Positions 3,821 to 21,963 of a stretch of 40,023 bases of DNA are shown piece after piece (position 1 is the first letter of the stretch; every line of letters starts with the position of its first letter). The translations under genes were made by a program, and so were the position numbers. Location: contig JAUXOF010000063.1 in assembly GCA_030682405.1 (NCBI GenBank), positions 1-40,023 of the forward strand. The letters run 5' to 3'. The notes under the pieces are model-generated. The model searched no databases and was not told the origin of the DNA. It saw nothing but the letters and a program-made list of their open reading frames with translations. The DNA comes from Thermodesulfovibrionales bacterium. GTDB lineage: Bacteria; Nitrospirota; Thermodesulfovibrionia; Thermodesulfovibrionales; JdFR-86.

Positions 3821-4192
3821 CTATTTGGCGGCGATAATGTCCGTTACCGCTTTTATCAGTTCCTGCGTCTGGATGGGTTTTGTGAGATAGGCGTTGGCGC
3901 CCAATGCCATTGCGCGGTTTCTGTCTTCCTGCGCGCCCTCGGTGGTAATCATTATCACCGGGATGCTTTTGTATGCGTTGTCCTCCCTGATAAGGCTGAT
4001 GAGCTTAAGACCGTTCATCACAGGCATGTTGATGTCCGCCAGTATCAGGTCTATTTTCTCCGAGGAGAGCTTCTTCAATGCGTCAACCCCGTCCGAGGCC
4101 TCAATCACCTTCGAATCGGGTATCCGCTTCATGGCGAAACTTATTAGCTGCCTCATGGTGGGCGAATCTTCTACAACGAGTATTACCGGCAT
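3821..4192 (-). CDS. single-domain CheY-like response regulator
   Basis: The 123-residue protein is a bare receiver domain. E8-D9, phosphoacceptor D53, T83 and K105 are all in place, so it should be phosphorylated. No output domain is present. It is the last gene of the minus-strand chemosensory operon, two bases after the GAF-protein stop, so it is probably the output or a phosphate sink of this pathway. The segment DINMPVMNGLKLISLIR is typical of the CheY/PilG-like class. Which target it binds (flagellar motor, pilus motor or another partner) cannot be told. Confidence 0.88.
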   Translation of the reverse strand: MPVILVVEDSPTMRQLISFAMKRIPDSKVIEASDGVDALKKLSSEKIDLILADINMPVMNGLKLISLIREDNAYKSIPVIMITTEGAQEDRNRAMALGANAYLTKPIQTQELIKAVTDIIAAK

Positions 4193-4194
4193 CC

Positions 4195-5016
4195 CTACCT
4201 CTTCGGCTTCTCCTTCAGGAGGTCGAGAAAGCTCTGCAATGTCGTCAACTTCCTTTCCGACTGGGTGTAAAGCCTCGATGAGAACACGGCCGTAGCCGCA
4301 TGGCCCGCAAGGAGGTTGAAGAGCTCGTAGTCCACATTCGTAAAATTCTTTTTCTGGATGAAAAGGGCATATATGGAGATAACGCCTATCACATGCTCTT
4401 TTATCTTAAGCGGTATGCAGACAATCGGCTCGCCCTTCAGGATGTCCCCCTTTGCATTCATATCCTGAGAGAAATAACTCTCCCCGTCCTTGGTTACATT
4501 CCCGATAATGCCCTCTCCTATTTTCGCCCTGGGTATCTCGGCCGCGGACACGCCTTCTGCGGCAACCGGCAGCAGCTCGTTGGTCTTTTCGTCCATCAGG
4601 AAAACGGCAAACTTCTCGGCCCCCACAAGGTTTATGACTATCTCAAGGATTATCCTCAGCACCTCGTTGAAGTCAAGAGTGGAGTGCAGTTGATAGCTTG
4701 CGACATAGAGGTTGGCAAGGTTGTTGTTCTCCTCCTCCACCTCCACATACCTTACCGCAAAGTCCTTGTTCTCCTCCTCCACCTTGATGAACTTATCCTT
4801 GAGGAATTCTATCTCGGCCTCAAGGTCCTCAATCCTGTGCTGAAAGAGCTTGGCCCTTCCCTCGCCTCCCGACCTATTGACGCTCTCCTCAAGCTCGACC
4901 AGCCTGAACCTGAGCCTCTCGTTCTCCTTCAGAAGCTCCTTGGTAAACTCCTCCCCCTTCTTGAAGACCTGAAGGAATTCATCCGCCATTTTGCCTATGC
5001 TTGCTTTGCTCTCCAT
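4195..5016 (-). CDS. coiled-coil and GAF domain protein
   Basis: Of 273 residues, roughly 10-105 are charged heptad-rich coiled coil (EELLKENERLRFRLVELEE and similar). A GAF domain follows at about 108-250, with LGIL-like start STLDFNEVLRIILEIVINLV, core FAVFLMDEKTNELLPVAAEGV, and EGIIGNVTKDGES. There is no kinase, HD-GYP or GGDEF output domain and no membrane segment, so it is a cytoplasmic sensor or scaffold. It lies between cheB and the CheY-like gene with short gaps, which suggests that it modulates this chemosensory pathway. The ligand cannot be predicted. Confidence 0.8.
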   Translation of the reverse strand: MESKASIGKMADEFLQVFKKGEEFTKELLKENERLRFRLVELEESVNRSGGEGRAKLFQHRIEDLEAEIEFLKDKFIKVEEENKDFAVRYVEVEEENNNLANLYVASYQLHSTLDFNEVLRIILEIVINLVGAEKFAVFLMDEKTNELLPVAAEGVSAAEIPRAKIGEGIIGNVTKDGESYFSQDMNAKGDILKGEPIVCIPLKIKEHVIGVISIYALFIQKKNFTNVDYELFNLLAGHAATAVFSSRLYTQSERKLTTLQSFLDLLKEKPKR

Positions 5017-5032
5017 ACCTTACCCGATTGGT

Positions 5033-6073
5033 TTACCCTTTTGCCGTTCTTATCATCTCAGCGGCGATATCCGTAAGCGGCAGAACTTTTTTGGCGGCGC
5101 CCGCCGCTATCACCTCTGCGGGCATGCCGAAAACAACCGCCGTTTCCTCGGACTCTGCTATAGTATAACCTCCTTTTGATTTAATTTCCAGCATGCCCTT
5201 CCTGCCGTCGCTCCCCATGCCCGTAAGCACCACGCCCATCGTATTGTTGCCGTAGTGCTCTGCGGCGGACATCATCATAATGTCCACCGACGGTATGTAC
5301 TTGTCCTCGTAGACGGCATCTCTTAGGGAAACGTAGACCCTGCCGCGCCTCTTTGAAAGGGTCATATGGCAGCCGCCGGGACATATCAAGGCAACGCCGT
5401 CCTGTATCTCGTCGCCGTTTTCCGCCTCTTTTATCCTCAGCTTTGAAAGGCCGTTAAGCCTTTCGGCAAGCGGGCCGGTAAAGCCGCGGGGCATGTGCTG
5501 GCTTATTATTATCCCTGAGGGGAAATCCGAAGGCAGTTTCGTCAGTATTATCTGAAGGGCTGGCGGCCCCCCTGTTGATGCGCCTATGGCGACCACATCA
5601 ATATCTATTTTCGATGTCTGTACTTCGGGCTGGACGCCTTCGTCTGAGCCGAGGAGCTGAAGGTTGCGGCTCAAGACGTCCATGTTGAGGCCCTTTATGC
5701 CCATGACCTTGGCGACAAGGTCCTTCTCTATATTCTTGAGCTCCATAGAGGCCCGCCTCGACGGCTTTGCTATGAAATCCACGGCGCCGAGTTCAAGCGC
5801 CTTGAAGACCGTTTTCGTATCCGAATAGGAACTGACCATTATCACGGGCGTGGGCCTCTGGGCCATCAGCCACCTGAGGAAACTGAAGCCGTCCATCTCG
5901 GGCATCTCGAAATCCAATGTTATCAGGTCGGGCTTAAGCCTCAGGGTCTTTGCCATTGCGTCTATGCCGTCGGAGGCCACGCCTATGACCTCTATGCCCG
6001 GCACGGACTCAAGCATCTTCTTTATCGTCTGCCTGCTGAACGCGGAATCGTCAACTACAAGCACTTTCACCAT
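5033..6073 (-). CDS. cheB: chemotaxis methylesterase/glutamine deamidase CheB
   Basis: CheB (346 residues) removes methyl groups from receptor glutamates and deamidates receptor glutamines. The receiver domain (1-120) has D8-D9, phosphoacceptor D54 and K103. After a linker, the esterase domain carries the catalytic triad: S166 in GASTGGP, H193 in SQHMPRGFT and D289 in GMGSDG. The length is normal for the family. It starts one base from the cheR stop, so the pair opposes each other on the two receptors encoded upstream. Confidence 0.96.
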   Translation of the reverse strand: MVKVLVVDDSAFSRQTIKKMLESVPGIEVIGVASDGIDAMAKTLRLKPDLITLDFEMPEMDGFSFLRWLMAQRPTPVIMVSSYSDTKTVFKALELGAVDFIAKPSRRASMELKNIEKDLVAKVMGIKGLNMDVLSRNLQLLGSDEGVQPEVQTSKIDIDVVAIGASTGGPPALQIILTKLPSDFPSGIIISQHMPRGFTGPLAERLNGLSKLRIKEAENGDEIQDGVALICPGGCHMTLSKRRGRVYVSLRDAVYEDKYIPSVDIMMMSAAEHYGNNTMGVVLTGMGSDGRKGMLEIKSKGGYTIAESEETAVVFGMPAEVIAAGAAKKVLPLTDIAAEMIRTAKG

Positions 6074-6074
6074 G

Positions 6075-6977
6075 TCACCTTCCCCACACCATCTTAAACA
6101 GGGTGCTGTCGGAAAGAGGGATATCGATTTTCTTGGGTTTCTGATAGACCATGTCGTTTTTTAGATGCTTCAGCGTAAATGCCGTGGAAATATTCATCAG
6201 GGACTCCGCATGCCCCAAAAGCAGGTAGCCCCCGTCCGAGAGCCTTTGGTAGAAATTCTCTATAACCCTCTTCCTCGCATCAATGTGGAAGTATATAAGC
6301 ACGTTTCTGCAAAGCACCACGTCCACCGTCCCCACAAATTTTATCTTAAACGGGTCAAGGAGGTTGAGGTAGCTGAAATTGACAAGCCTCCTGACGCTGT
6401 CGTTTACCTTGTAAAGGCCGTCCTCCTCGGTAAAATATTTCTTGATGAAATACTCATCCGTGGTCCTGAAGGAGTTCTTCCTGTAAATGCCCCTCCTTGC
6501 CGCCTGAAGAACCCTCTGGTTTATGTCGCTTCCGAGCACCTCTATATCCCAGCCGTCAAACATGCCGCCCTGCTCAAGTATCAGCATGGCGATGGTATAA
6601 GGCTCCTCGCCCGAAGAACAGCCCGCCGACCATATCCTCAGTTTCCGGGCGCCGCCCCTCATGAGTCTCACTTCCTTCAGTATCTCCTCGCTCAGGGCCT
6701 TAAGCTGGCTCTCCTCCCTGAAAAAATAGGTTTCGTTTACCGTAAGGATATCCATTGCGGCTGAAAGCTCCTCCTCCTTCTGTCTGTCATAGAGGAGCAG
6801 CCTGTAGTAGTCCCTGAAGTTGTCGAGGTGATGGACCCTCAGCCTTCTTGAGAGCCTTCTTGAGAGAAGGTATTTTGAGGAATCGTCGAAATAGACGCCG
6901 CAGTAATCCTTTATCAGATCCCTCAGCAGCCTGAATGCCTCGTCCGAAAGCGGTATGGATTCTTCGATATCGCTCAT
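6075..6977 (-). CDS. cheR: chemotaxis receptor methyltransferase CheR
   Basis: The 300-residue enzyme transfers methyl groups from SAM to receptor glutamates. The N-terminal helical domain ends at the conserved NETYFFRE (81-88). The SAM-binding domain has GCSSGEEPYT (119-128), the acidic GSDIN segment after the second strand, and CRNVLIYF (223-230). No C-terminal TPR or pentapeptide-tethering extension is present. Its start overlaps the stop of the HEAT-repeat gene by 4 bases, and cheB follows one base after its stop. Confidence 0.96.
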   Translation of the reverse strand: MSDIEESIPLSDEAFRLLRDLIKDYCGVYFDDSSKYLLSRRLSRRLRVHHLDNFRDYYRLLLYDRQKEEELSAAMDILTVNETYFFREESQLKALSEEILKEVRLMRGGARKLRIWSAGCSSGEEPYTIAMLILEQGGMFDGWDIEVLGSDINQRVLQAARRGIYRKNSFRTTDEYFIKKYFTEEDGLYKVNDSVRRLVNFSYLNLLDPFKIKFVGTVDVVLCRNVLIYFHIDARKRVIENFYQRLSDGGYLLLGHAESLMNISTAFTLKHLKNDMVYQKPKKIDIPLSDSTLFKMVWGR

Positions 6978-8962
6978 CGCACAAACCGCTCAAGCGTTTT
7001 TATGACGGCAGGGTCTTCCTCTTTATCGAACAGCCTTTCGAGTTTTGCCCTGACGCCGCTGTCACGGCAGTCGCCGAGCGCCTCGACCGCAGCCACCCGT
7101 GTGGCCCAGTCGTCATCTTCTATAAAAGGCACAATAGCCCCTTCCACTCCCTCAAAACCGGAAAGCGCCTTTATTGCGGTCCTCCGTATCTCCTTATCCG
7201 CGGAGGTCAGCATGCCGATGAGCGCGGCTTTGGCCTCGGCCCCGCCGAGCTTCCCTATAGAGTCCACTGCCGTGGTCACAACAAAACCGTTCTTGTCCGA
7301 AAGGGCCTTTATGAGGGCCGGCGCCGCGCTTCTGCTGCCGAGCATGCCCAAGGCCTTTGCCGCCGCAACCCTTACCATGCCGTCAGGGTCGCTCAGTAAA
7401 AGGCAAAGGGGCTCAAGCGCCCCGTCGCTGCCTATTGCGCCAAGGCTTAAAGCGGCAGACACCCTTATGCCCTGGTCCTCGTCCGTAAGGGCAAGGGTGA
7501 GGTATTTTATGGAGTCCCCTGTTTTTATCGAAGAAAGCGCGCTTACAACCGCCCTCCTAACGTCCACGGAATCGTCCTTGAGCGCAAAGCCCAGCTCCGG
7601 AACGGCTCCGGCAAAAGACAGGACGCCCAGAAGAAGGGCGATATTTTTCCTGAGCACGGGGTTTTTGATTTTAAGACTTTCTATCAATTCATTGATGTCA
7701 AGGCCGTCCTTAAGCCTGCCCAATGCGCCTATAGCGGCCTCCTGAACATCCGGGTACATATCGAGCAGAAGCCCCTTGACGGGTTCTACGGCCCTCAGGT
7801 CCCCTATATTGGCAAAACCCGTGGCTGCTATGGCCCTGACGTGGCCGTCCGCATCCTCAAGCATCTTCAAGAAGATATCGTAGTAAAGGGGGGCGGCAAC
7901 CTCGGCGGCAACCGAGCATGTAAAACGCCTAAGCTGAGGGTTTTCCTTTTCAAACAGGGGGATAAGGGACTCCGGCTTGCCCCTGCCTATGAATACCAGC
8001 GCCCTCTTTACGTCATCCGCAAATTCGGCTTCGGAAGAAAGGTCAAGCAGCGGGTCAAGCGCCCTTTCATCCTTCAGGAGGCCAAGAAGCAGTATCGCAG
8101 AAACCCTCACCTCCGGCTTCGTGCTCCATGCGTGCTCCAGAAGGAGATGAATCGCACCGTCCCCGAAAAAACTTCTCAGATGCCCGGCTACGACTTCCTC
8201 CTTGACACCCTTGTGGTACAGCCTCTCCACGGCCTTAATGGCCTCTTCCTGAACGACCCTCGACTTGTCGTTGATAAAAGGCGCCACTTCCTTAAGGCAC
8301 TCCTCATCGCCGAGCTTTCCTATGGCCTTAAGCGCCGGTTCCCTCAGGGGCTTCCGCAAAAGCGCCCGTATGAGAGCGGGCAGCGCCCGCCCGTCGCCTA
8401 TCCTGCCCAAGGCGTCCGCCGCGGGATAGGCGGTCCAGAGGTCGCCCTCATCAAGGATTGCTATAAGCGCATCCACCACCGACGGCTCCCCGATAACCCC
8501 CAGATGTTCCACAGCCGAGGCCCTGACGTTTTCGTCCTCGTCCTTAAGCGCATCAAGCATCAACTGCAGGGCGTTTTTGTCCCGGAACTGGCCGAGCACA
8601 TCTATGATGAACTTCCTTACGTCCGCATTCGGCGTCTTGAACGCCTCAATCAGATAGGGCGTGGACTTCTTGCCGAGCCTCGTGAGCGTCTCTATGGCGG
8701 AATTCCTTGCGCCCGCGTTATCCTCCATGTAAAGAAGGGAAATCAGACCGTCTATGTAGGCGTCTATGGGGTACTCTTCAAAGAGCATTTCCTGGGCAGT
8801 CTTTCTTACCCTCCAGCCGCTGTCCTGCATCGCCTTTACGAACAGGGCTATGACATCGGCCCGGGCAATGCCGGGCGGCCCGGCCTTCAGCATCAAGACG
8901 GCGGCCCGCCTTTTATCCGTGTCTATGCTCTGCAGTTGTTTTTCAATCTCTTCCTTCAACAT
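6974..8962 (-). CDS. HEAT-repeat protein of the chemosensory operon
   Basis: The 662-residue protein consists of tandem HEAT/PBS-lyase-type helical repeats from end to end, with repeated cores such as VRASAVEHLGVIGEPSVVDAL, VRVAAAKALGMLGSRSAAPAL and IRVSAALSLGAIGSDGALEPL. I estimate about 20 repeats. No signal peptide, membrane helix or catalytic domain is apparent. It should form a cytoplasmic solenoid for protein binding. Its place between cheW and cheR, with 2-base and overlapping junctions, suggests a scaffold in the receptor array or a link to the output machinery. Such genes are known in some deltaproteobacterial-type chemotaxis clusters, but their role is poorly defined. Confidence 0.85.
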   Translation of the reverse strand: MLKEEIEKQLQSIDTDKRRAAVLMLKAGPPGIARADVIALFVKAMQDSGWRVRKTAQEMLFEEYPIDAYIDGLISLLYMEDNAGARNSAIETLTRLGKKSTPYLIEAFKTPNADVRKFIIDVLGQFRDKNALQLMLDALKDEDENVRASAVEHLGVIGEPSVVDALIAILDEGDLWTAYPAADALGRIGDGRALPALIRALLRKPLREPALKAIGKLGDEECLKEVAPFINDKSRVVQEEAIKAVERLYHKGVKEEVVAGHLRSFFGDGAIHLLLEHAWSTKPEVRVSAILLLGLLKDERALDPLLDLSSEAEFADDVKRALVFIGRGKPESLIPLFEKENPQLRRFTCSVAAEVAAPLYYDIFLKMLEDADGHVRAIAATGFANIGDLRAVEPVKGLLLDMYPDVQEAAIGALGRLKDGLDINELIESLKIKNPVLRKNIALLLGVLSFAGAVPELGFALKDDSVDVRRAVVSALSSIKTGDSIKYLTLALTDEDQGIRVSAALSLGAIGSDGALEPLCLLLSDPDGMVRVAAAKALGMLGSRSAAPALIKALSDKNGFVVTTAVDSIGKLGGAEAKAALIGMLTSADKEIRRTAIKALSGFEGVEGAIVPFIEDDDWATRVAAVEALGDCRDSGVRAKLERLFDKEEDPAVIKTLERFVR

Positions 8963-8964
8963 GC

Positions 8965-9426
8965 CTATGCCGTTTCAAACGTCTCTTTGGATTCCTGAAG
9001 CATCATCGTTTCCTCCGAGGTAAGGAACCTCTTCACATCTATGAGTATTACCACCCTGTCCGTTTTTTTCCCGAGTCCTCTAAGGTATTCGGTTTTCAGC
9101 CCCTTGAAAATTCCGGGCGGTTTGGTTATCTCGGCCTTCTCAAAACCCGTTATCTCCCTTACCTCATCTACGACAAGCCCGACCTTTTCGCCGCCTGCCC
9201 GGACGATGATAATACGCTCGTTCTTCGGGAGGGGCGCTACTAAAAGGCGCTTCCTCATGTCTATCATGGGTATCACATCGCCCCTTACTGTCAGCACCCC
9301 TGAGATAAAATCCGGCAGTTCGGGAATAGGACACACCTTCTGGGACTTAAGTATCTCGACGACATCGCTTATGCCGAGCCCGAACTCCTCCGTCCCGAGC
9401 CTGAATACGATGAACTTCTCCATCAC
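8965..9426 (-). CDS. cheW: CheW-type coupling protein (short form)
   Basis: The 153-residue protein is a stand-alone CheW domain. It begins [22 protein letters not shown] and has the typical [19 protein letters not shown] core and a [13 protein letters not shown] segment. CheW couples receptors to the kinase CheA. The operon also encodes a longer CheW, so two couplers are available for two receptors. It overlaps the receptor gene upstream by 4 bases and is followed by the HEAT protein after 2 bases. Confidence 0.93.
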
Positions 9427-11450
9427 CCGATCTTAAACGCCTCCATATCTTTTCTGAGCAGATTCATCTCTCCCTCAAGGCTTCTCAGGGAAAGCGACAC
9501 TGCCTCCATATCCCTCAAGGTGGCAGCCCCTATGCCCTTGACCTCCTCGATATAAGAGATAATGCCCTCGTTTATCTTCTCCTGATTTAAGACGGACTGA
9601 TTTATCTCCGCCAGCCTTTCGCCGGCAAGCTCAAGGTTCTTGGATATCAGCTTTGTCCCAACGGCCTGCTCCTCCGTGCCCCTCTTCGTGGATTCCGCCA
9701 CCTCCCTTACCTCTCCCACGCGCTCGAGCATGAATTCCGACGCCTTGGACTGTTCGTTCGTGGCCTTCGTCATCCGGGAGACCATCTTCCTTATATCGTC
9801 TATGGATGTGGATATCTGCCTGAGACCGCCCGCCTGCTCCTCTGTCGCCTTCTCTATCGCCTTGGCCATCTGGACGGATTTTCTGGAGGCGTCAAGTATG
9901 CTGCCCATCGCCTCCCCGGCCTTATATACCAGAGAACTGCCGTCATCTACAAACTGCATGCCCGCCTCTATGGAGACGACCGCATCGGCTATCTCTGCCT
10001 GTATGGTGCTCACAATGCCGGTTATCTCTTTGGTAGAGGCCGCAGTCCTGTCGCTTAACGCCCGTATCTCGTCGGAGACGACGGAGAAGCCCTTTCCGTA
10101 CTCACCCGCCTGAGCGGCAAGTATCGCCGCATTGAGGCTGAGGAGGTTCGTCTGCTCCGTGACCTCCTTTATCACCGAAAGCATCTTCTCGATGTCCTTT
10201 GACCTTGCCCCGAGACGCCTTACTATCTCCACCGAATACCTGACCTTGTCGGATATCCGCTCCATGCCCTCTATGGCCTCTGCCACCGTTATTACGCCCT
10301 TTTCGGCTGCAATCTCCCTGACGTTATCGGCAAGGGAGGTGGATTCCTTGGCGCTGGATTCCACCTCCTTGACGGACGCGCTTATCTCCTCCACCGAGGC
10401 CAGAGCGTCCTCGACCGAGGTGAGCATTTTTTCGGCGTTCTCTGCCATCGCCTTGGACGTCTGAGACAGCTCGGCAACCGTGGAGTAGGAGTTCTCGGAC
10501 GCCTGAAACAACCTGTTTGTGCTCGAGGCTATCTCATCGGCAATAGTCTTCATCTGAAGAAGGGAGGTTACGTTCTCCGCGGAAAACTCCGAAAGCCTCT
10601 CCGTGCTGCCCGTTATCATCTTCTGAGACTCATTGGCATTTTTTAAAGACAAAGACATCTTGTCCACAGAGTTTGACTGTTTCTGTATGCCCTTTGTCAC
10701 GTTCCCGAATGTCAGGTTAAGCTGTTTTATGGCCATTGCCACATTGTTGGTGGTCAAATGCAATTTCGTCACGGTTGAAGACAGCCCTTGCACCAGAAAC
10801 CTCAGTCCCTTGGAAATGACGCCGAGTTCGTTTTCGCCGGCATCCGAGATATCCACGGTGAGGTCGCCCGCAGTGACATTCTCTATGTTATTCTGGAGGG
10901 CTTTAACCGGGCTGCCGACACTCCTCTGAAAAAACAGATAGATGACCGATATCATCAGTATCACGACCAGCGCCTGACCCGCCGGCGGCACCGTAAGTAG
11001 GCTCAGCATCGCCGCGTTTACCTTATCGCCGCTGTATGTTATTTCGACCGCACCGATAGTGTCGTTGCCCGACCTTACCGGAACCGCAAGCTTGTTCGTC
11101 CACGGCATGAACAAGGGGTTTGCGCTCTGCCCCGCCTGCACTGACCGGGACGACATCCTCTCCTTCAAGACATTGCCCCCGGCGTCCAGAACGCGCACGG
11201 ATATTATGTCTCCGTCCCTCACGGACACATCAAGGAAGCGGTCAAGGGGTTCATAATTGTAATCCGTCATGGCGGCGGAAGAGAAATTCGCAGCGAGGCT
11301 GCCTATGCTGCTTATCTTATCCGAGAGCATTCTCATGTTGTGTCCCTTCTGGTCGTAAAGGAACCATGTCCATAAAGACCCCTGCCCTACCAAAAGGACA
11401 AAAAGCACGATGAGTATAAAACTGCCGGCAATGGATTTTCCGAACCTCAT
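9423..11450 (-). CDS. methyl-accepting chemotaxis protein
   Basis: This 675-residue receptor has an N-terminal membrane helix (about 9-32), a periplasmic sensor of about 120 residues, a second helix (about 155-177, [16 protein letters not shown]) and a HAMP domain with the [21 protein letters not shown] segment. A long cytoplasmic signalling domain follows. The periplasmic domain has no ligand motif that I recognise. The hairpin tip reads [20 protein letters not shown], where enteric receptors have VEAARAGE in place of ILAAQAGE. A good Shine-Dalgarno (aggaggggga) precedes the ATG. It lies 10 bases after the larger receptor gene. Confidence 0.93.
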
Positions 11451-11460
11451 TCCCCCTCCT

Positions 11461-14310
11461 CTATAGCATCCCCATCTTGGACATCATAGCCCTTACGCCA
11501 TTGTAGTCTTCATCGGATGCCTCCATAAAGCCCGTATAGCTCTTGTCTACAGCCTTCAGTATCTGTGCGCCCTCGGGCCTGCCGCCGAGTTCGACAAGGG
11601 CGGACTTGACGGCGCCCCTCTCTGAATTCCCCATGGAAGCGCTTGCGCATATGTTGAACTCCGGTATCTCATCCGAGACCTGCACGTAATAAAGCCCCAT
11701 GTCTTTATATTTGTCGGCGGCGGACTCCATAACCCCGCCGGCGTCAAACTCGCCGTCAATGACGGCCTTTACCACATCGTCGTGGTGACCGAGGTAGTTA
11801 TAATAGGAGAGGGCCTGAAGCTCTATCCCCGCATCAAGGAGCATTGCCCTCGGCACTATATGGCTTGACGTGGAGTGGGCGTCTCCGAACGCAAACGACC
11901 TGTTCCTGATGTCCCTTATTGACTTGATGCCGCTGTCGGCCTTTGTTATTACCAGGGCGCGGTGGAACGGCCTTCCTTCCCTCAGGGCCTTGGCAAGCAG
12001 GGCAACGCCGTAGCCCCTGTAGGCCTCTATGTATGTGGAGGGTGTCATGTAACAAAGCTGTGTGACCCCCTGCCCCAAATCCTTTACTGCGGTTTCAAAG
12101 TCAGTGGCTACTTTAAGCTCTATCTTCTTGCCGAGCCTCCTGCCGAGATAATCCGCAAGCGGAGTAAACCTCCTGAACATATCTGCCGGAGACTCAAGGG
12201 GTACGACGCCGAATTTTATGACCCCTGCGCCTTTTTCCTCGTAGAGCTTGAACCTCTCCATCTCCGTGACCAGAAGGTCCGAATCCTTTGATAGCTCGCG
12301 CAGGGCCTTGTTTATCTTGAAGGTGAGGTCCCTGTTTTCGCCCGGCAGGTTCTTTATCCTATCGACGGAATCCCGTATCTGGCCCGAGCCGAGTTTCTGC
12401 TCGTTAATGGCCCTCGCTATCTGCTGCGACCTGTCCGAGATAATCTCTATGGCCTGTGCCATCTGCCTGCTGGAGGCCTCCTGCTGCTGTGTGGCATTGT
12501 TGACCTGCAGGGAGGAGTTCTTCATCTTGTCCACGGCAACTATGACAAAGGCTATACCTTTTGACTGCTCCGCCGTAGCCCTGGCAATCTGTCCGACCAT
12601 CTCCCTGACGGTCTCTATCGAATCAGACACAAGCCTCGCCGCCTTCGCCTGCTCGCCGGTGGAACGCTCGATGGCAGCCGCCATTTCAGAGGACATCTTG
12701 GAACTTGCAAGAATCTTCTTCACGGCATCCGATGCCTCAGCGGAAAGCTTCAGCCCCTCCTCAACGGACGCCAGCCCGTCCTTCATCGCGTCAACGGCAT
12801 CCCTTACCTCCTGCCTGACGGACTGTATGAGGGTATCTATCTCCTGAGTCGAGAATGCGGTCCTTTCGGCAAGGTCCTTTATCTCGTCTGCGACAACCGA
12901 AAACCCCTTGCCGTGCTCGCGGGCCTGGGACGCCAGTATGGCGGCATTCAGGGCAAGCAGCGTCGTCTGGTCGGTGATATCGTCAATGACGTTCAGTATT
13001 TTGCCTATCTCATCGGAACGGCCGCCGAGTTTCTTTATGACGGAGGCGGTCTTCTCCACCGCCGTCTTAATCCTCTGCATGCCGAGCGCGGTCTTGTCAA
13101 TCGCGGCCACACCGAGAGTGGATGCGTCTTTGGTAACCTTTTCGGAGAGCTTCGCCGATTCCTTGGCGCTTGTCTCGACTTCTTTTATGGAATATATTAT
13201 TTCCTCCACTGCCGAAAGCGTCTCGTCCGATACCTTTGCGAGATGGTCGGAGCTCTCGGCAACCTCTTTTATCGTTGCATACATCTGCTCTATGGAGGAG
13301 GATGTCGCTTCCACTCCCTCTGAGAGTTCGCTGGTTATCTCCGTCACGGAGCCTATGCTTGCAGACATCTGTTCTATCGAGGCCGCAATCTCCTCGACCG
13401 AAGACGCAAGGCTTTCCGTGCCTTCGGCTATCTCCGTTATCGCGGCATTGAGCTGTTCGACGGAACTTGATATGTTGGCAACGGCCTCGGCCTCAAGCTG
13501 TATGCCCTCAAGCACCTTTCTCGATTCGCCTTCCACGCTGCCTGTTGCGCTGGATATCTCCCCGGCAATCTCCTTTACCCTCATGAGGACGGAGCTTATG
13601 GAGCGCAGGGACTCCTTTATAGACCTGTCGAGCTTTCCTATCTCGTCCTTTGTCTTTATGCCGGTCTTAAAAGACAGGTCTCCCTCTGACATCCTCAGGG
13701 CATTGGCCTCAAGCGTTCTTACGGGCCTTACGACAAAACCTCTTATTACCCGCCAGAAGATTATGCCCAGCACAGCCGCGCCCAGAAGGCTCCCCAGCAC
13801 AACCATAATCATAAAGTTCATCACCTTCCGGCGTTCCGCGGCCAAGGAGACGGATATCTTCACCGCGCCTATCACAGGGATATCGGCAGGATGGCAGCCC
13901 CGGCACTGGGCCCGGTTCTCAAGGGGCATGTAAAAGACTATGGAGTCGTCTCTTTGAGCCGCAAAGGCCGTCTTACCCTCGTAGACTTTTTTCAGGTTTT
14001 CAGCCTCGCCCGAATGAACCTCGCCGGTAAAGGCCACTTTCCCCTCATGGTTATAGACATCTATCGTCTCGAATCCGCTTACGGACTTAAGATTTCTTAT
14101 CAGCGTCTTTGCAGAATCGGCATTTCCTTCAAGCATTGTCCTGTCTATGCTTTCGGTAATTACCCTTGCAGTAGCTTCAAGCCTTTCAGTTGCCACGGAG
14201 TAAACGTCGGACTTGACGAAATAAAACACCAGAAGGCTGACCGCCACAACTCCGATTATGAGCAGGCTAAGCCCCATACCGAGAATTTTGAATTCAAGCT
14301 TTTCTCTCAT
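11461..14310 (-). CDS. chemoreceptor with periplasmic CxxCH heme motif and C-terminal PhnD-like domain
   Basis: One uninterrupted frame of 949 residues. Helix 1 (about 9-32) and helix 2 (about 164-186) bracket a periplasmic sensor with C136-R-G-C139-H140, a c-type heme attachment motif in a [17 protein letters not shown] context. HAMP (about 187-240) and a methyl-accepting signalling domain follow, with tip [20 protein letters not shown]. From about residue 697 to the end is a PhnD-like solute-binding fold: start [15 protein letters not shown], core [12 protein letters not shown] and [19 protein letters not shown]. No third membrane helix precedes this domain, so it should lie in the cytoplasm, unlike the usual periplasmic PhnD. 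It may sense a cytoplasmic phosphonate- or phosphate-like ligand or hold an adaptor. The 5' end overlaps the long CheW gene by 17 bases. Confidence 0.9.
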
Positions 14311-15127
14311 CCGCCCCCCCAGACATCCTGAAGTTCATCGCCTCCTGAAGCCTCACGACCGATATAAACCTGTTGTCGGCAACGACAACGCCCTCTATAA
14401 ACTTCGCCTCGGCCTCGCTCAGATGAGACGGCGGCTCAACTATATCCCCCGAGGGAATTCTTATCACGTCTATAACCCGGTCCACCAGTGCGCCTATCGA
14501 GCCCTTCGGCCCTTTAAGTATCACTATTTTCTCTTTTCCCTGTGCGCCGTCCTCGGAAAGGGAGAACCTAATCCTTAGGTCTATCAACGGGATTATCTTC
14601 CCCCTCAGGGACGTAATCCCGAGCATGAATTTCTCCGTCCTTGGCACCTTTGCGAACCTCTGCAGCTTCAGTATCTCCTCCACATCCGAGACCTTAAAGG
14701 CGTAGTCCTCCTTGGCGAGCTTAAAGGTCAAAAGCTCTACCATGTCTCCCTCCTGCTCTTTGTCCGGCGACGGCGGCACGGTTGACTCAGGCTCTTTAGG
14801 CGAGGGCATCCTCTCCTTGGCTGGCAATTCCCCTGCCGCTTCTTCAGCCTCAGGTTCTTCTTCCTCTATATCAGGCTGTAAGGCGACGTGCTCGGCATCT
14901 TCCTCAGGGGGTTTTTCATAAGCGGGATATTCTGTTTCTTCGGAAGGCCCGGAATCTCCGGTCTTCTCCTCCGCATGAGGGGAGGGGATAATCCCGGCAA
15001 CGGCCTCCGGGAACTCGGCCCCGGCCCCGACTATAGGTTCAGCCGAATGTTCGGCTTCTGCCTCCTTTTCGGCCTGACGGGCCTCCTTGGCCTCTTTGAG
15101 TTTCTTTCTTATTTTTGCAATATCCAT
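14294..15127 (-). CDS. CheW-domain protein with long acidic N-terminal extension
   Basis: I place the start at the ATG at 15127 (277 residues). An upstream ATG at 15214 would read into an intergenic repeat element. Residues 1-25 are a basic/acidic helix (KIRKKLKEAKEARQAEK). About 26-125 are Pro/Glu-rich low-complexity sequence. The CheW domain occupies about 127-265 (LLTFKLAKEDYAFKVSDVEE, GITSLRGKIIPLIDLRIRF, GALVDRVIDVI). It is the first gene of the minus-strand chemosensory operon. The disordered arm may extend reach or bind a partner, which is an inference. Confidence 0.85.
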   Translation of the reverse strand: MDIAKIRKKLKEAKEARQAEKEAEAEHSAEPIVGAGAEFPEAVAGIIPSPHAEEKTGDSGPSEETEYPAYEKPPEEDAEHVALQPDIEEEEPEAEEAAGELPAKERMPSPKEPESTVPPSPDKEQEGDMVELLTFKLAKEDYAFKVSDVEEILKLQRFAKVPRTEKFMLGITSLRGKIIPLIDLRIRFSLSEDGAQGKEKIVILKGPKGSIGALVDRVIDVIRIPSGDIVEPPSHLSEAEAKFIEGVVVADNRFISVVRLQEAMNFRMSGGADERKA

Positions 15128-15208
15128 ATTCGTATGGCTATCTATAGGAAAAATCACGTTAATTTTCCCATAAAAACATGGTAAATGTAAAGTGTCGGGG
15201 TTGGCCTG

Positions 15209-15300
15209 CGTCATTCTGGCTTGTCCAGAATCTTTCTCTAAGTAAGGATTCCCGACAAGTCTATGACCCGTGGGTCACGACCCATAGGGCGGGAATGACG
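15209..15300. repeat. composite inverted-repeat element carrying the three-arm module (copy 1)
   Basis: The element is bounded by cgtcattc (15209-15216) and gaatgacg (15293-15300). It contains a small hairpin, attctgg (15213-15219) with ccagaat (15225-15231), and an attcccg/cgggaat pair (15248-15254, 15290-15296). In the loop of that pair sits a module beginning ctatgacccgtgggtc at 15261. A 37-base stretch (15260-15296) is identical to 39111-39147. The outer arms resemble the Neisseria dRS3 pattern ATTCCC...GGGAAT. It lies between the divergent chemosensory operon and hom. Confidence 0.85.
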
Positions 15301-18550: not shown

Positions 18551-20317
18551 TCAGTAGAAACCCTTGAGTTTATGCCTCAGCGGGTATGCGGGAGGGGTAG
18601 AACTTGGAAGCTCGGGCAATTCCTTGTCAAGAAGACTTCTGAAGAAATAATCATAACCGAGTTGCGGAAAATACTGCAAAAGTTCCTTATTTACAAGCAA
18701 TGACCCGTCTAAGTTATAAAATACGAATATGACATCGTCCGTATCTATAAGGCTTTTCCCCCAATGCTGGCTGTCGTATCTGAATTGAGTACGCTTAGTA
18801 TTTCCGGTTAAATACAAAACTAATGCTTCCCTATCCATCACATTTCCCGCCGTAAAATCGTTTCTGCAAAGGGCTACGTGTTTACGGAAATCTTCCGGCT
18901 TCTCCGATGTCGCGTAAAGTGCGTTTAAAACGAACTCGTAATCATATTCGTTGTCGAACTCCGTGTCAAAAACCGGCATATCCAGATAGATGTCAAAGAA
19001 AAACGCGGCCTTCTCCGGTATAACCGGGAACCGGGCGGTAAAAGCCCTCCAGAACCCGGCCTGCTTTTGCCATGAATTATAAGCGAGGTCGAGGTTGAAG
19101 TTGCTGAAAAATATCCCGATTCCTATCAGCGCGGATACGAATAATTTAAAAGCGGATTTTTTAAAGCTGTTTTTGAGGAAAAATGCAGGCAGAATAAATA
19201 ATAAACTTCCCCATACCATGGCGTAACCGAGTTGGACAATAATGCCGTGACGGGATTCTATCCTAAACCCCGGCACCCGCCCGGTAAACTCATATAGTGA
19301 AACCGACGGTATTAAGATAATTAAGCCGAAGGCAAGAACAAGCATACCTGTTCTCCATTGTGCCGCAGGGCTTTGTTTAAGGGATTCCTCCTCTTTAAAA
19401 ACCCCCCTAAGCGCATAAAGTCCTGACAGCATACCAAGAATCCCGAGCATAACCGACCATAGACTGGCGTATCTCGTCCAGTCAACAATCCCCGTAAAGC
19501 GAAACCAGTTTACGAAAAAGAAATGTTTAAGGAACTCAAGGTGCAGTTTCCACTTTAAAAAGAAAAGGGGGTCGGATTTATAGATATCGGTATAAATGCC
19601 GAAGGGCTTATATATTAATTTATAAAATATGAGAGGCATCAGAAGGAGGATGAAAGGCGAGCCGTACTTGACCAGATTCTTTATGATATGTTTTCTGTCG
19701 GCGCCCTCCCTGTAAAAAGAATATCCGATTATGAACAGTCTCGCAGGTTCAAGGGCTACAGCCGCTTCAAGCAGGACATATTCCGAAAACCCTGAAAGCG
19801 CAAGCCCAACGGCCAGCAGGGGCCAGCGCTTATCCCCGCTGAAAGCCCTCATGGTCAGATAAAGGGATATCACGCTAAGCAGGGACCCTAATCGGTAAGT
19901 TATGGTGGAGAAAATCGGCAATGTATAATCTATCGGATAAATGAGCAGAACGGCAGCCGACAGAAAAGCGGGAAACCTCTTCCCGAACAGGTCCCTCACG
20001 AGCAGATATAAAAAGCACGGCGTAAGCACCTGTGTGACTAAATTTAAGGAGTGCCCGATAATATAGAAATAGTCCGTATTTTTATGGAGACTGAAAAAAT
20101 AATAAGTGAAAATCCCATTGGCCGCCCTCCTCAACTCAAGCCACCCTGTGTTAAGGAACCCATCTAAGTCTTTGCTTTTGTACAGGGACAGGAACCATGC
20201 GTTGTCGTCCCAGAAGACATCGGCAAGAAAAAATATTCTGCCGTAGCTCAGGAGCGCAAAGGCGGCGATGAATACAGGATAAAAATCCGGCCTATCGGTT
20301 TTTAGCTGCTTTGGCAT
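18551..20317 (-). CDS. polytopic membrane protein, GT-C glycosyltransferase-like
   Basis: The 588-residue protein has about ten or more hydrophobic segments in residues 12-420 and a soluble C-terminal portion of about 160 residues. The first helix is followed by FFLADVFWDDNAWFL (D37-D38 region). An acidic pair in the first outer loop is typical of GT-C lipid-phosphosugar-dependent glycosyltransferases. I do not recognise a specific family, and no donor or acceptor can be named. A purine-rich ggggggaag precedes the ATG. It sits between the spermidine-synthase-like gene and the large glycan-type operon, separated from the latter by 112 bases, so it may have its own promoter. Confidence 0.6.
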   Translation of the reverse strand: MPKQLKTDRPDFYPVFIAAFALLSYGRIFFLADVFWDDNAWFLSLYKSKDLDGFLNTGWLELRRAANGIFTYYFFSLHKNTDYFYIIGHSLNLVTQVLTPCFLYLLVRDLFGKRFPAFLSAAVLLIYPIDYTLPIFSTITYRLGSLLSVISLYLTMRAFSGDKRWPLLAVGLALSGFSEYVLLEAAVALEPARLFIIGYSFYREGADRKHIIKNLVKYGSPFILLLMPLIFYKLIYKPFGIYTDIYKSDPLFFLKWKLHLEFLKHFFFVNWFRFTGIVDWTRYASLWSVMLGILGMLSGLYALRGVFKEEESLKQSPAAQWRTGMLVLAFGLIILIPSVSLYEFTGRVPGFRIESRHGIIVQLGYAMVWGSLLFILPAFFLKNSFKKSAFKLFVSALIGIGIFFSNFNLDLAYNSWQKQAGFWRAFTARFPVIPEKAAFFFDIYLDMPVFDTEFDNEYDYEFVLNALYATSEKPEDFRKHVALCRNDFTAGNVMDREALVLYLTGNTKRTQFRYDSQHWGKSLIDTDDVIFVFYNLDGSLLVNKELLQYFPQLGYDYFFRSLLDKELPELPSSTPPAYPLRHKLKGFY

Positions 20318-20429: not shown

Positions 20430-20957
20430 TCAGTCGAACTCGCTCTTTTTTCCAAGCACAAGGAGCTTCAACGCGGTCATCGCGTTTGCCGCCAACAGCA
20501 TGACCGGTTTCCCTATGAAGTATCTCCCGTCCTTGAGCGCTACCTGCCCGCTTCCGAGGAGCCTGCCAAGCCTGTTGGAAACCATCTCCTTTGCGTTGTA
20601 CCTTGAAAGAAGTTCCTCAAGGGTCAGGCCGCTTGAGTCCTTAACCTCTATGAGCAGCCGTATCCTGCGGGCAGTCACCCCGAGGTTTATGAAATGGAAA
20701 TATCCGTACCCAAGGGCCGAGTATGTAACCGCATCCGCCACTGCTGCCGAGATAAAATCAGCCGAGACGCGGGGCCTTATAAAATACGCATATCCCTCCA
20801 GCAGAAGCAGGCAAAGGAGCCCCGCGCCAAAGCCGAGAAAAATGGATTTAAGCAGGCCAAGCCCCCTTATGTGGCGGGCCGAGAGCACCTGAATCAGGAC
20901 GTTTGCCCCGAACGCAAAGACAGGGATTAATGGCTCAAAGACGCCGCCTTGCATCAC
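20430..20957 (-). CDS. small membrane protein with winged-helix-like tail (A)
   Basis: Of 175 residues, about 8-105 contain three or four hydrophobic helices (PLIPVFAFGANVLIQVL, IFLGFGAGLLCLLLLEGYAYF, ALGYGYFHFINLG). A soluble segment follows (LTLEELLSRYNAKEMVSNRLGRLLGSGQVALKDGRYFIG) that reads like a small winged-helix or DNA-binding-like motif ending in a beta wing. A hydrophobic stretch closes the protein. I do not recognise the family. It is the last gene of the operon and overlaps the previous gene by 4 bases. It shares its layout with that gene, so the two probably work together. Confidence 0.65.
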   Translation of the reverse strand: MMQGGVFEPLIPVFAFGANVLIQVLSARHIRGLGLLKSIFLGFGAGLLCLLLLEGYAYFIRPRVSADFISAAVADAVTYSALGYGYFHFINLGVTARRIRLLIEVKDSSGLTLEELLSRYNAKEMVSNRLGRLLGSGQVALKDGRYFIGKPVMLLAANAMTALKLLVLGKKSEFD

Positions 20958-21448
20958 CCGCCCCTAAGCGGAGCCCTAAGGAGCTTCCTATAGAAAATGA
21001 ATATCCTTATGAACGATTCGCCCTTTGGCGTGAGACGGTATCTGCCCCCCTCGAGATATACATGACCGTCCCTGAGCAGGTCTTTTATCCTCGGTATGAC
21101 CAGAACGTCGTCCGTCATCATCTCGTCAAACCTGCCCTTGGGAAGCCCCTCAGTGCCTGCCCCGGCTATGGCGTTGACCATGACGAGCGAGGGGCTGTCC
21201 ACCTCCATCGCCGAGTAGGTGATGATGTAAGCGAGGGTGAGGGAGACGACGAAAAGCCCTACTGATATGCACCCTTGCAAGCTCAGGGAGGCGGAGACCA
21301 GGAAAAAGACAAAAAAGGCTGCCAATGAGCCAAAGAATATAAGAAGTAGCGCCCTCGTCTGCCTTTTGGGAAGGCGAACTTTCCATATGCCGAGGTGGAG
21401 GATGAAAGAGACGCCGAATATGACCGAGCCCCACAGCAGGGTCTTCAT
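20954..21448 (-). CDS. small membrane protein with winged-helix-like tail (B)
   Basis: The start is placed at the ATG at 21448, which overlaps the stop of the TIM-barrel gene as ATGA, giving 164 residues. The longer frame from 21616 would overlap that gene by 170 bases. Three helices (about 3-20, 30-55, 60-83) are followed by a soluble part with DDVLVIPRIKDLLRDGHVYL and EGGRYRLTPKGESFIRIFIF, a winged-helix-like layout matching the neighbouring gene. The function is unknown. A pair of small membrane proteins at the end of a glycan operon may act in export or lipid handling, but this is speculation. Confidence 0.65.
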   Translation of the reverse strand: MKTLLWGSVIFGVSFILHLGIWKVRLPKRQTRALLLIFFGSLAAFFVFFLVSASLSLQGCISVGLFVVSLTLAYIITYSAMEVDSPSLVMVNAIAGAGTEGLPKGRFDEMMTDDVLVIPRIKDLLRDGHVYLEGGRYRLTPKGESFIRIFIFYRKLLRAPLRGG

Positions 21449-21963
21449 GCGGACTGCTCCCAGCTCCCTACGAAGTCGTTCAGCCTTTTGAACTCCTCGT
21501 AGGTCTGAAGCGACTTCCGGGCCTCGGATATGACAAGCCCTGAATATCCGCCTTCCCTCAGAAGGCCAAGTAGCCGTTTTCCATTTTCCGGGCTGTTGTG
21601 TATATGGGTATGCCACTTGTCCGAACCGAACGTATAGCCGCTCATGTGCACATGGGATGCAAGCCTTATGAAATTCATGAACCCCTCGTCGTCAAAAAAC
21701 ACGTTGTGAAAAACCGCAACCTCCGCGCCTATGGCCTTTGAAATGCGGGCAACGCCTTCAGGGTCGTAACCCTCGCCGGAGGCATGAATAGAGTAGCGGA
21801 AGGGATAGCCATTGCAAAGCCTTATTATGCCTTCCGTATCGCGGAGGATTTCCGCTGAGAGATAAAGCTCCACAGCCTCAAGCCCTGCCTGCCTCACAGC
21901 CCGGAAATATCCCTCCTCCGGAGCGCACTTTATCCCTATCGTTATGCCAGAAACATTTCCCAT
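21445..21963 (-). CDS. compact TIM-barrel protein (sugar isomerase/AP-endonuclease-2 fold)
   Basis: The 172-residue protein has strand-end motifs of the xylose-isomerase-like TIM-barrel superfamily: LEAVELYLS, FRYSIHASGEGYD, VAVFHNVFF, HVHMSGYTFGSDKWHTHIHN and GLVISEARKS. The Glu/His residues at these strand ends are plausible divalent-metal ligands. At 172 residues it is much shorter than the usual 250-300, so the barrel is either incomplete or minimal. It lies three bases after radical SAM gene 1. A sugar or cyclitol isomerase or epimerase role in the same pathway fits, but no substrate can be named. Confidence 0.6.
   Translation of the reverse strand: MGNVSGITIGIKCAPEEGYFRAVRQAGLEAVELYLSAEILRDTEGIIRLCNGYPFRYSIHASGEGYDPEGVARISKAIGAEVAVFHNVFFDDEGFMNFIRLASHVHMSGYTFGSDKWHTHIHNSPENGKRLLGLLREGGYSGLVISEARKSLQTYEEFKRLNDFVGSWEQSA

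Follow-up and report, generated by a model that had tools for sequence, protein, structure and literature searches.

Solute-binding proteins are taken to act outside the inner membrane, and the question raised by one gene in the 40,023-nucleotide window (the whole stretch of Thermodesulfovibrionales DNA analysed here) is what the fold of such a protein might do at the C-terminal end of a chemoreceptor. The gene (positions 11461-14310, minus strand, stop codon included) is a single open reading frame that begins with ATG at 14310 and runs uninterrupted for 949 codons to 11461. Pfam searches of its product matched Mcp40H-20_sensor at residues 50-156 (E = 1e-7), HAMP at 189-232 (E = 2e-7), MCPsignal (PF00015) at 415-570 (E = 4e-40), and Phosphonate-bd (PF12974) at 700-936, the last with E = 4e-59 and a score of 200 bits (cut-off 27). 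The receptor, encoded throughout on the minus strand, thus has the features of its class, namely a PF00015 domain with a conserved tip and a TM-periplasmic domain-TM-HAMP input module. Hydropathy peaks at residues ~14-32 and ~166-184; with the full-length model, TM1 is placed at ~8-33 (14212-14289) and TM2 at ~165-188 (13747-13818). Between them lies a predicted periplasmic heme-c sensor (~34-164; 13819-14211), assigned by Pfam and by alignment to PDB entry 3b42. The HAMP domain (189-240; 13591-13746; Pfam) is followed by the MCP coiled-coil signalling domain (~241-685; 12256-13590), delimited by Pfam, orthologue alignment, and modelling, with its predicted CheA/CheW-contacting tip near residues 450-475. 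A variable linker of about 12 residues (~686-697; 12220-12255), marked by low pLDDT at 691-694 and a mean identity of 0.36, leads into the PhnD/PtxB-like solute-binding domain (698-949; 11464-12219), for which Pfam, sequence matches, a fold model, and structural matches agree. A preliminary description had read two membrane helices, HAMP, a signalling domain, and a PhnD-type domain from about residue 697 in a single frame; Pfam, hydropathy, and recurrence in dozens of genomes confirm this layout, with the final domain starting at about 698. The c-type heme motif of the periplasmic domain was missing from that description.

Hydropathy analysis of the receptor finds two TM segments and none C-terminal of TM2. 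Among 86 distinct fused frames collected, 84 likewise have no later TM segment; in the other two the hydropathy matches are borderline, at 1.62 and 1.71. An adjacent pair of TM helices with almost no loop, and no periplasmic domain, is found in ten full-length fusions (L027, L082-L085, L093, and L131-L134). Since the MCP domain of these TM-hairpin variants necessarily lies inside the cell, their PhnD-like domain must lie inside also, and as far as can be read from their sequences it is the sole recognisable sensory domain that they possess. The secretion signs of an ABC-transporter solute-binding protein (signal peptide or lipobox) do not apply to a domain that is internal to the receptor and follows the MCP domain. 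A periplasmic location is rejected on sequence evidence, namely the TM-hairpin variants and the lack of a preceding TM segment after the MCP domain, so that the C-terminal PhnD-like domain most likely lies on the cytoplasmic side, as had been proposed. One candidate for a soluble receptor without TM segments (L138) was rejected, being a broken frame with its N-terminal half just upstream in another frame.

The MCP hairpin tip is near-invariant across 33 orthologues, and the two arms of the coiled coil have roughly the same length, some 225 residues either side of the tip. Arms of this kind would bring the C-terminus back to the level of HAMP and the membrane, a placement that comes from sequence arithmetic rather than from a modelled dimer. 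The full-length monomer model shows long helices, then a low-confidence linker (686-697), then the C-terminal domain. Its pTM is low (0.39), so local features alone were used, and the position of the domain beside HAMP rests on the coiled-coil arithmetic, not on the model. The next gene (9423-11450, minus strand; Pfam and alignment to the receptor) encodes a second MCP, MCP2, which has no C-terminal domain and ends at the point matching the start of the receptor's linker. The PhnD-like domain therefore appears to have been appended at the receptor's natural end. The tether of Tar and Tsr lies at the C-terminal end of the receptor. The PhnD-like domain occupies the same place and CheR and CheB are encoded in the same operon, as might be expected of a docking or structural module that binds no small molecule, but instead CheR/CheB in lieu of a pentapeptide tether, or some other cytoplasmic partner. 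The CheR/CheB version of this idea, raised in the preliminary description, finds no support here, since the partner receptor MCP2 has neither a tether nor a PhnD domain. A docking role would also leave the TM-hairpin receptors without any sensor and sits poorly with pocket residues that are conserved above the remainder of the domain; we consider it improbable.

The AlphaFold model of residues 691-949 is a complete two-lobe solute-binding fold (class II; mean pLDDT 95.4), so structure prediction and domain search both recover the fold first read from the sequence. The top structural match is ArrX (VIA Z 30.9, rmsd 1.9 Å over 247 residues), PtxB matches with Z 30-31 at ~25-28% identity, and TM-scores between the modelled domain and ligand-bound ArrX and PtxB are 0.83-0.88. 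Sequence searches with the domain recover PtxB, ArrX, HtxB, AioX, and PhnD, the closest relatives with solved structures being phosphite-binding PtxB proteins. The domain passes the cut-off of the NCBIfam phosphate/phosphite/phosphonate solute-binding subfamily (TIGR01098; 124.5 against 112), and at 116-120 bits falls short of the 261 set for the PhnD equivalog (TIGR03431), the phosphonate transporter solute-binding protein. In a tree of 65 rows, the MCP-fused domains all group in a single clade (96/81) that excludes secreted solute-binding proteins, PtxB, and ArrX; ArrX groups not with the MCP domains but with the first domain of tandem proteins (100/100). By this phylogeny, the MCP-fused PhnD-like domain has a single origin.

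The tandem proteins are secreted, carry two PhnD-like domains in ~550-660 residues, and were seen at four loci (L088 2811-4592, L089 3893-5890, L090 5251-6972, and L146 3609-5261). Three of them (L088-L090) were placed in the tree, where ArrX clusters with their first domain (100/100) and their second lies on another branch, near the MCP domains. A further locus, L086 (5756-15996), encodes two distinct MCP-PhnD receptors a few kb apart, one with and one without the heme motif, and a free secreted PhnD-like protein between them.

A search of 84,980 GTDB species genomes with residues 674-949 returned 32 loci. All 28 of the close loci (55-66% identity) are from Nitrospirota MAGs and have the domain fused to an MCP in a single frame. 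An assembly join, a frameshift fusion, or chance is ruled out by the presence of the fusion in at least 28 independent genomes of several classes. At E <= 1e-60 the domain occurs in 91 of 396 Nitrospirota genomes, nearly always within a frame of 590-1080 residues. No receptor-length fusion was found at E <= 1e-40 in 349 sampled Pseudomonadota genomes, where the matches are free proteins of ~290-360 residues; of two longer frames there (551 and 580 residues), one is a tandem protein and the other an ordinary PtxB spuriously extended at its 5' end by read-through. In a profile search that covered these Nitrospirota and Pseudomonadota genomes, the fusion was thus seen in Nitrospirota only.

The start lies inside the locus in 50 of the 86 fused frames, and 32 of these 50 contain a CxxCH motif. 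Pfam analysis of fusions lacking the motif identified one with sCache_3_2, one with a 4HB-like module, and several with no periplasmic domain. Four related proteins of ~640 residues have a short coiled coil and an EAARAGE-type tip, so that the PhnD-like domain is found on two receptor types. Judged from these architectures, it looks like a modular sensor that combines with MCP coils of either length and with a periplasmic domain of the heme-c, sCache_3_2, or 4HB-like kind, or with none. Mean pairwise identity is 0.58 in the PhnD-like domain and 0.57-0.58 in the coiled-coil arms, against 0.40 in the periplasmic domain and 0.36 in the linker. The fused domain might in principle serve no function, being either neutral or already decayed, and a few family members do lack single pocket residues (T814 replaced by Ala or Leu, H843 by Gln). 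This explanation is nevertheless very improbable, since receptors from many families and several classes retain the domain (36-68% identity), together with one serine that never varies and a histidine and a phenylalanine that hardly do.

The putative ligand pocket was compared across 40 family members, using the numbering of Trichodesmium PtxB (Te_PtxB; PMC5700983). The predicted oxyanion-binding residues S813-T814-S815 (11866-11874, minus strand) align with Te_PtxB S130-T131-S132, and H843 (11782-11784, minus strand) with H160. This STS-H grip is largely retained, with S813 in 40/40 members, T814 in 32/40, S815 in 31/40, and H843 in 39/40. The cap residues E884-F885 (11656-11661, minus strand) align with Q207-Y208. 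Here the receptor departs from PtxB, the phosphite-specific capping tyrosine and its aspartate partner (Y208/D22) being replaced by F885/L705. Phenylalanine is present in 39/40 members and leucine in 35/40 (the remainder have Ile, Phe, or Val), with Leu or Ile paired with Phe in 38/40; the Leu/Phe pair is missing from the free solute-binding proteins nearest in the tree. Te_PtxB Y55 and Y100 correspond to F738 and H783. Conservation at the eight pocket positions exceeds that of randomly drawn positions (mean entropy of 0.79 bits, compared with 1.44; p ~0.01).

These residues bear on the earlier suggestion that the domain senses cytoplasmic phosphonate, phosphite, or a related molecule. That it is most likely a ligand sensor stands; that the ligand is phosphonate or phosphite is opposed by the F885/L705 cap, by the PtxB Y208F variant, and by the lack of PhnJ. 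A cytoplasmic sensor of reduced phosphorus would fit the retained STS-H grip and the rank of PtxB proteins as nearest solved relatives. Against this, the Tyr208/Asp22 cap has become Phe/Leu in 35/40 family members, and in PtxB the Y208F substitution alone weakens phosphite binding ~1700-fold (Kd 0.17 to 295 uM) and abolishes that of phosphate and methylphosphonate (Kd >60 mM) (PMC5700983). The window genome lacks PhnJ, of the C-P lyase, and only 3-4 of 121 genomes searched have it; for the window genome, linkage to C-P lyase is rejected on this ground. Identity as a phosphonate or phosphite sensor is unproven and, in our estimate, distinctly unlikely. By analogy with Y208F, the ligand is probably not simply phosphite, and the Phe/Leu cap may let the cytoplasmic domain ignore millimolar phosphate, for which the PtxB mutant, having no compensating leucine, is a hint rather than a test. 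As the grip itself is altered at F738 and H783, binding by the receptor domain could also be weak or lost.

The fold is permissive, ArrX having been crystallised with malonate and acetate, GpxB with glycerol-1-phosphate, and XAC2383 with ATP, and the domain might accordingly relay a cytoplasmic metabolite other than an inorganic oxyanion, such as a carboxylate, phosphate ester, or nucleotide. The STS-H grip and small hydrophobic cap instead suggest a small ligand, and we assign the metabolite reading a low probability. Ahead of phosphite or phosphonate we place a sulfur oxyanion from dissimilatory metabolism, either sulfite or thiosulfate, though this is a guess by analogy and more apt to fail than to hold. 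The PhnD-like periplasmic domains of TtrS and ThsS respond to tetrathionate and thiosulfate (PMC5408782), thiosulfate is chemically similar to an alkylphosphonate, and the ArrX structure was crystallised with sulfate. A strong dsrA match is present in 85 of the 91 genomes with a close domain match, including the window genome, against a background of dsrA above cut-off in 173 of 396 Nitrospirota genomes. The association (Fisher 5e-30) is strongly confounded by phylogeny, most matches belonging to one class of one phylum, and is not independent evidence as the genomes are related.

The periplasmic domain contains CRGCH (residues 136-140; 13891-13905, minus strand), a c-type heme attachment motif of the form CxxCH that is kept in 32 of 33 aligned orthologues. 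The domain matches the heme-c MCP sensor family Mcp40H-20_sensor (PF21563; E 1e-7) with the CxxCH motif aligned. It also aligns, over CRGCH/CQSCH (E 9e-4), with the solved chemoreceptor sensor 3b42, which we take to be one of the Geobacter heme-c domains. Matches to WD40 were repeat-inflated and disregarded. Given the heme motif, the receptor probably takes two inputs. Heme-c sCache domains joined to signalling modules act as NO sensors and are abundant in Nitrospirota (preprint, PMC12889525).

The receptor gene is part of a che operon on the minus strand, with genes overlapping or near-abutting in the order CheW(long)-MCP-PhnD-MCP2-CheW-HEAT-CheR-CheB-GAF-CheY-like. The first encodes a CheW with a long N-terminal extension and overlaps the receptor start (14294-15214; Pfam). 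Beyond MCP2 lie genes for CheW (8965-9426; Pfam), a 662-residue HEAT-repeat protein (6974-8962; Pfam and synteny), the methyltransferase CheR (6075-6977; Pfam), the methylesterase CheB (5033-6073; Pfam), a GAF-domain protein (4195-5016; Pfam and synteny), and a CheY-like response regulator (3821-4192; sequence and a match to the CheB receiver). Nearly all relatives with sufficient flanking DNA show this gene order; the HEAT-repeat protein is similarly fixed between CheW and CheR in nearly all of them. Upstream of the operon, relative L006 has a CheY-like gene, cheA, and an AAA ATPase, where the window genome instead has homoserine dehydrogenase; the cheA orthologue of the window genome lies on contig C22, with a match of 942 bits. 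The ATPase that adjoins cheA in the relatives' cluster is ExeA-like (L006 4353-5168), and probably the same gene accompanies cheA on contig C22 of the window genome, near 41283. Elsewhere in the window, two long frames (18554-20317 and 20957-21616, minus strand) have no Pfam or NCBIfam match.

The window genome encodes five MCPs above cut-off and three CheA, those on contigs C25 and C14 (L129 and L130) among them. No flagellin was found in it and PilT-family ATPases are present, making pilus control likelier than swimming. Its chemosensory systems therefore probably control something other than flagella, and the receptor itself probably acts on type IV pilus motility, or else on a different process that does not involve flagella, pilus control being inferred from the missing flagellin only. 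Around one PilT-like match (contig C48, 15293-16003), an implausible open frame of 24274 residues was reported, which presumably reflects a stretch of N or faulty output.

MCPs with cytoplasmic C-terminal sensors include TlpD, with a zinc-binding CZB domain, and DcrH, with hemerythrin. These share the location of the receptor's sensor but have other folds, not that of a solute-binding protein. PtxB and PhnD proteins (PF12974; 5jvb, 5o2j, and 3p7i) share the whole fold and the STS-H grip, but are secreted, unfused, and serve ABC transporters, and their cap Tyr/Asp and Y100 are Phe/Leu and His in the receptor. ArrX and AioX, which sense arsenic oxyanions, have the same fold and likewise a signalling rather than transport role; they differ in being periplasmic and separate from the histidine kinase with which they act, and the MCP domains form a clade apart from ArrX. 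In the kinases TtrS and ThsS, compared here by description, a PhnD-like domain is the sensor of a signalling protein with sulfur oxyanion ligands (PMC5408782), but it is periplasmic and drives a kinase, whereas that of the receptor is C-terminal, most likely cytoplasmic, and on an MCP. GSU0582, GSU0935, and the sCache_heme family have, like the receptor, a periplasmic single-heme-c sensor before TM2-HAMP-MCP (PMC3460858, PMC12889525); the literature covered mentions no solute-binding domain at their C-terminus. C-terminal cytoplasmic MCP sensors and PhnD-like signalling domains are thus each known, and we found no report of their combination. Our literature search, with most subscription papers and architecture databases beyond its reach, found no published account of a solute-binding fold as a C-terminal cytoplasmic MCP sensor.

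Architecture, conservation, operon, and fold are established here at the level of sequence and model. We propose that the protein is a dual-input chemosensory receptor, in which a periplasmic heme-c sensor and a cytoplasmic PhnD/PtxB-type clam-shell sensing a small XO3-type oxyanion act through CheA, a reading that we hold with moderate confidence. The clam-shell, which a short flexible linker attaches where the returning C-terminal helix ends near the membrane, would close on an oxyanion held by S813/T814/S815/H843, with the Phe885/Leu705 cap discriminating against abundant cytoplasmic phosphate. Closure would move the two domains of the receptor dimer beside HAMP and so bias CheA activity, which would be integrated with the NO or redox signal of the periplasmic heme. 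A fuller version is that a phylum-wide class of Nitrospirota receptors, in a single event, acquired a periplasmic oxyanion-binding protein as a cytoplasmic domain, re-tuned its cap against phosphate, and now steer by sulfite or thiosulfate together with heme-c NO/redox input; taken whole, this is speculative and rather unlikely. If true, it would amount to metabolism-dependent taxis read straight from a respiratory intermediate of sulfur respiration.

A whole receptor lineage thus appears to use a solute-binding fold inside the cell, amid abundant phosphate, which poses a clear selectivity problem and suggests a solution to it. With its proposed inputs outside and inside the cell, the receptor makes a compact and testable example, and in these mostly uncultured bacteria it may sense a respiratory oxyanion directly within the cell.
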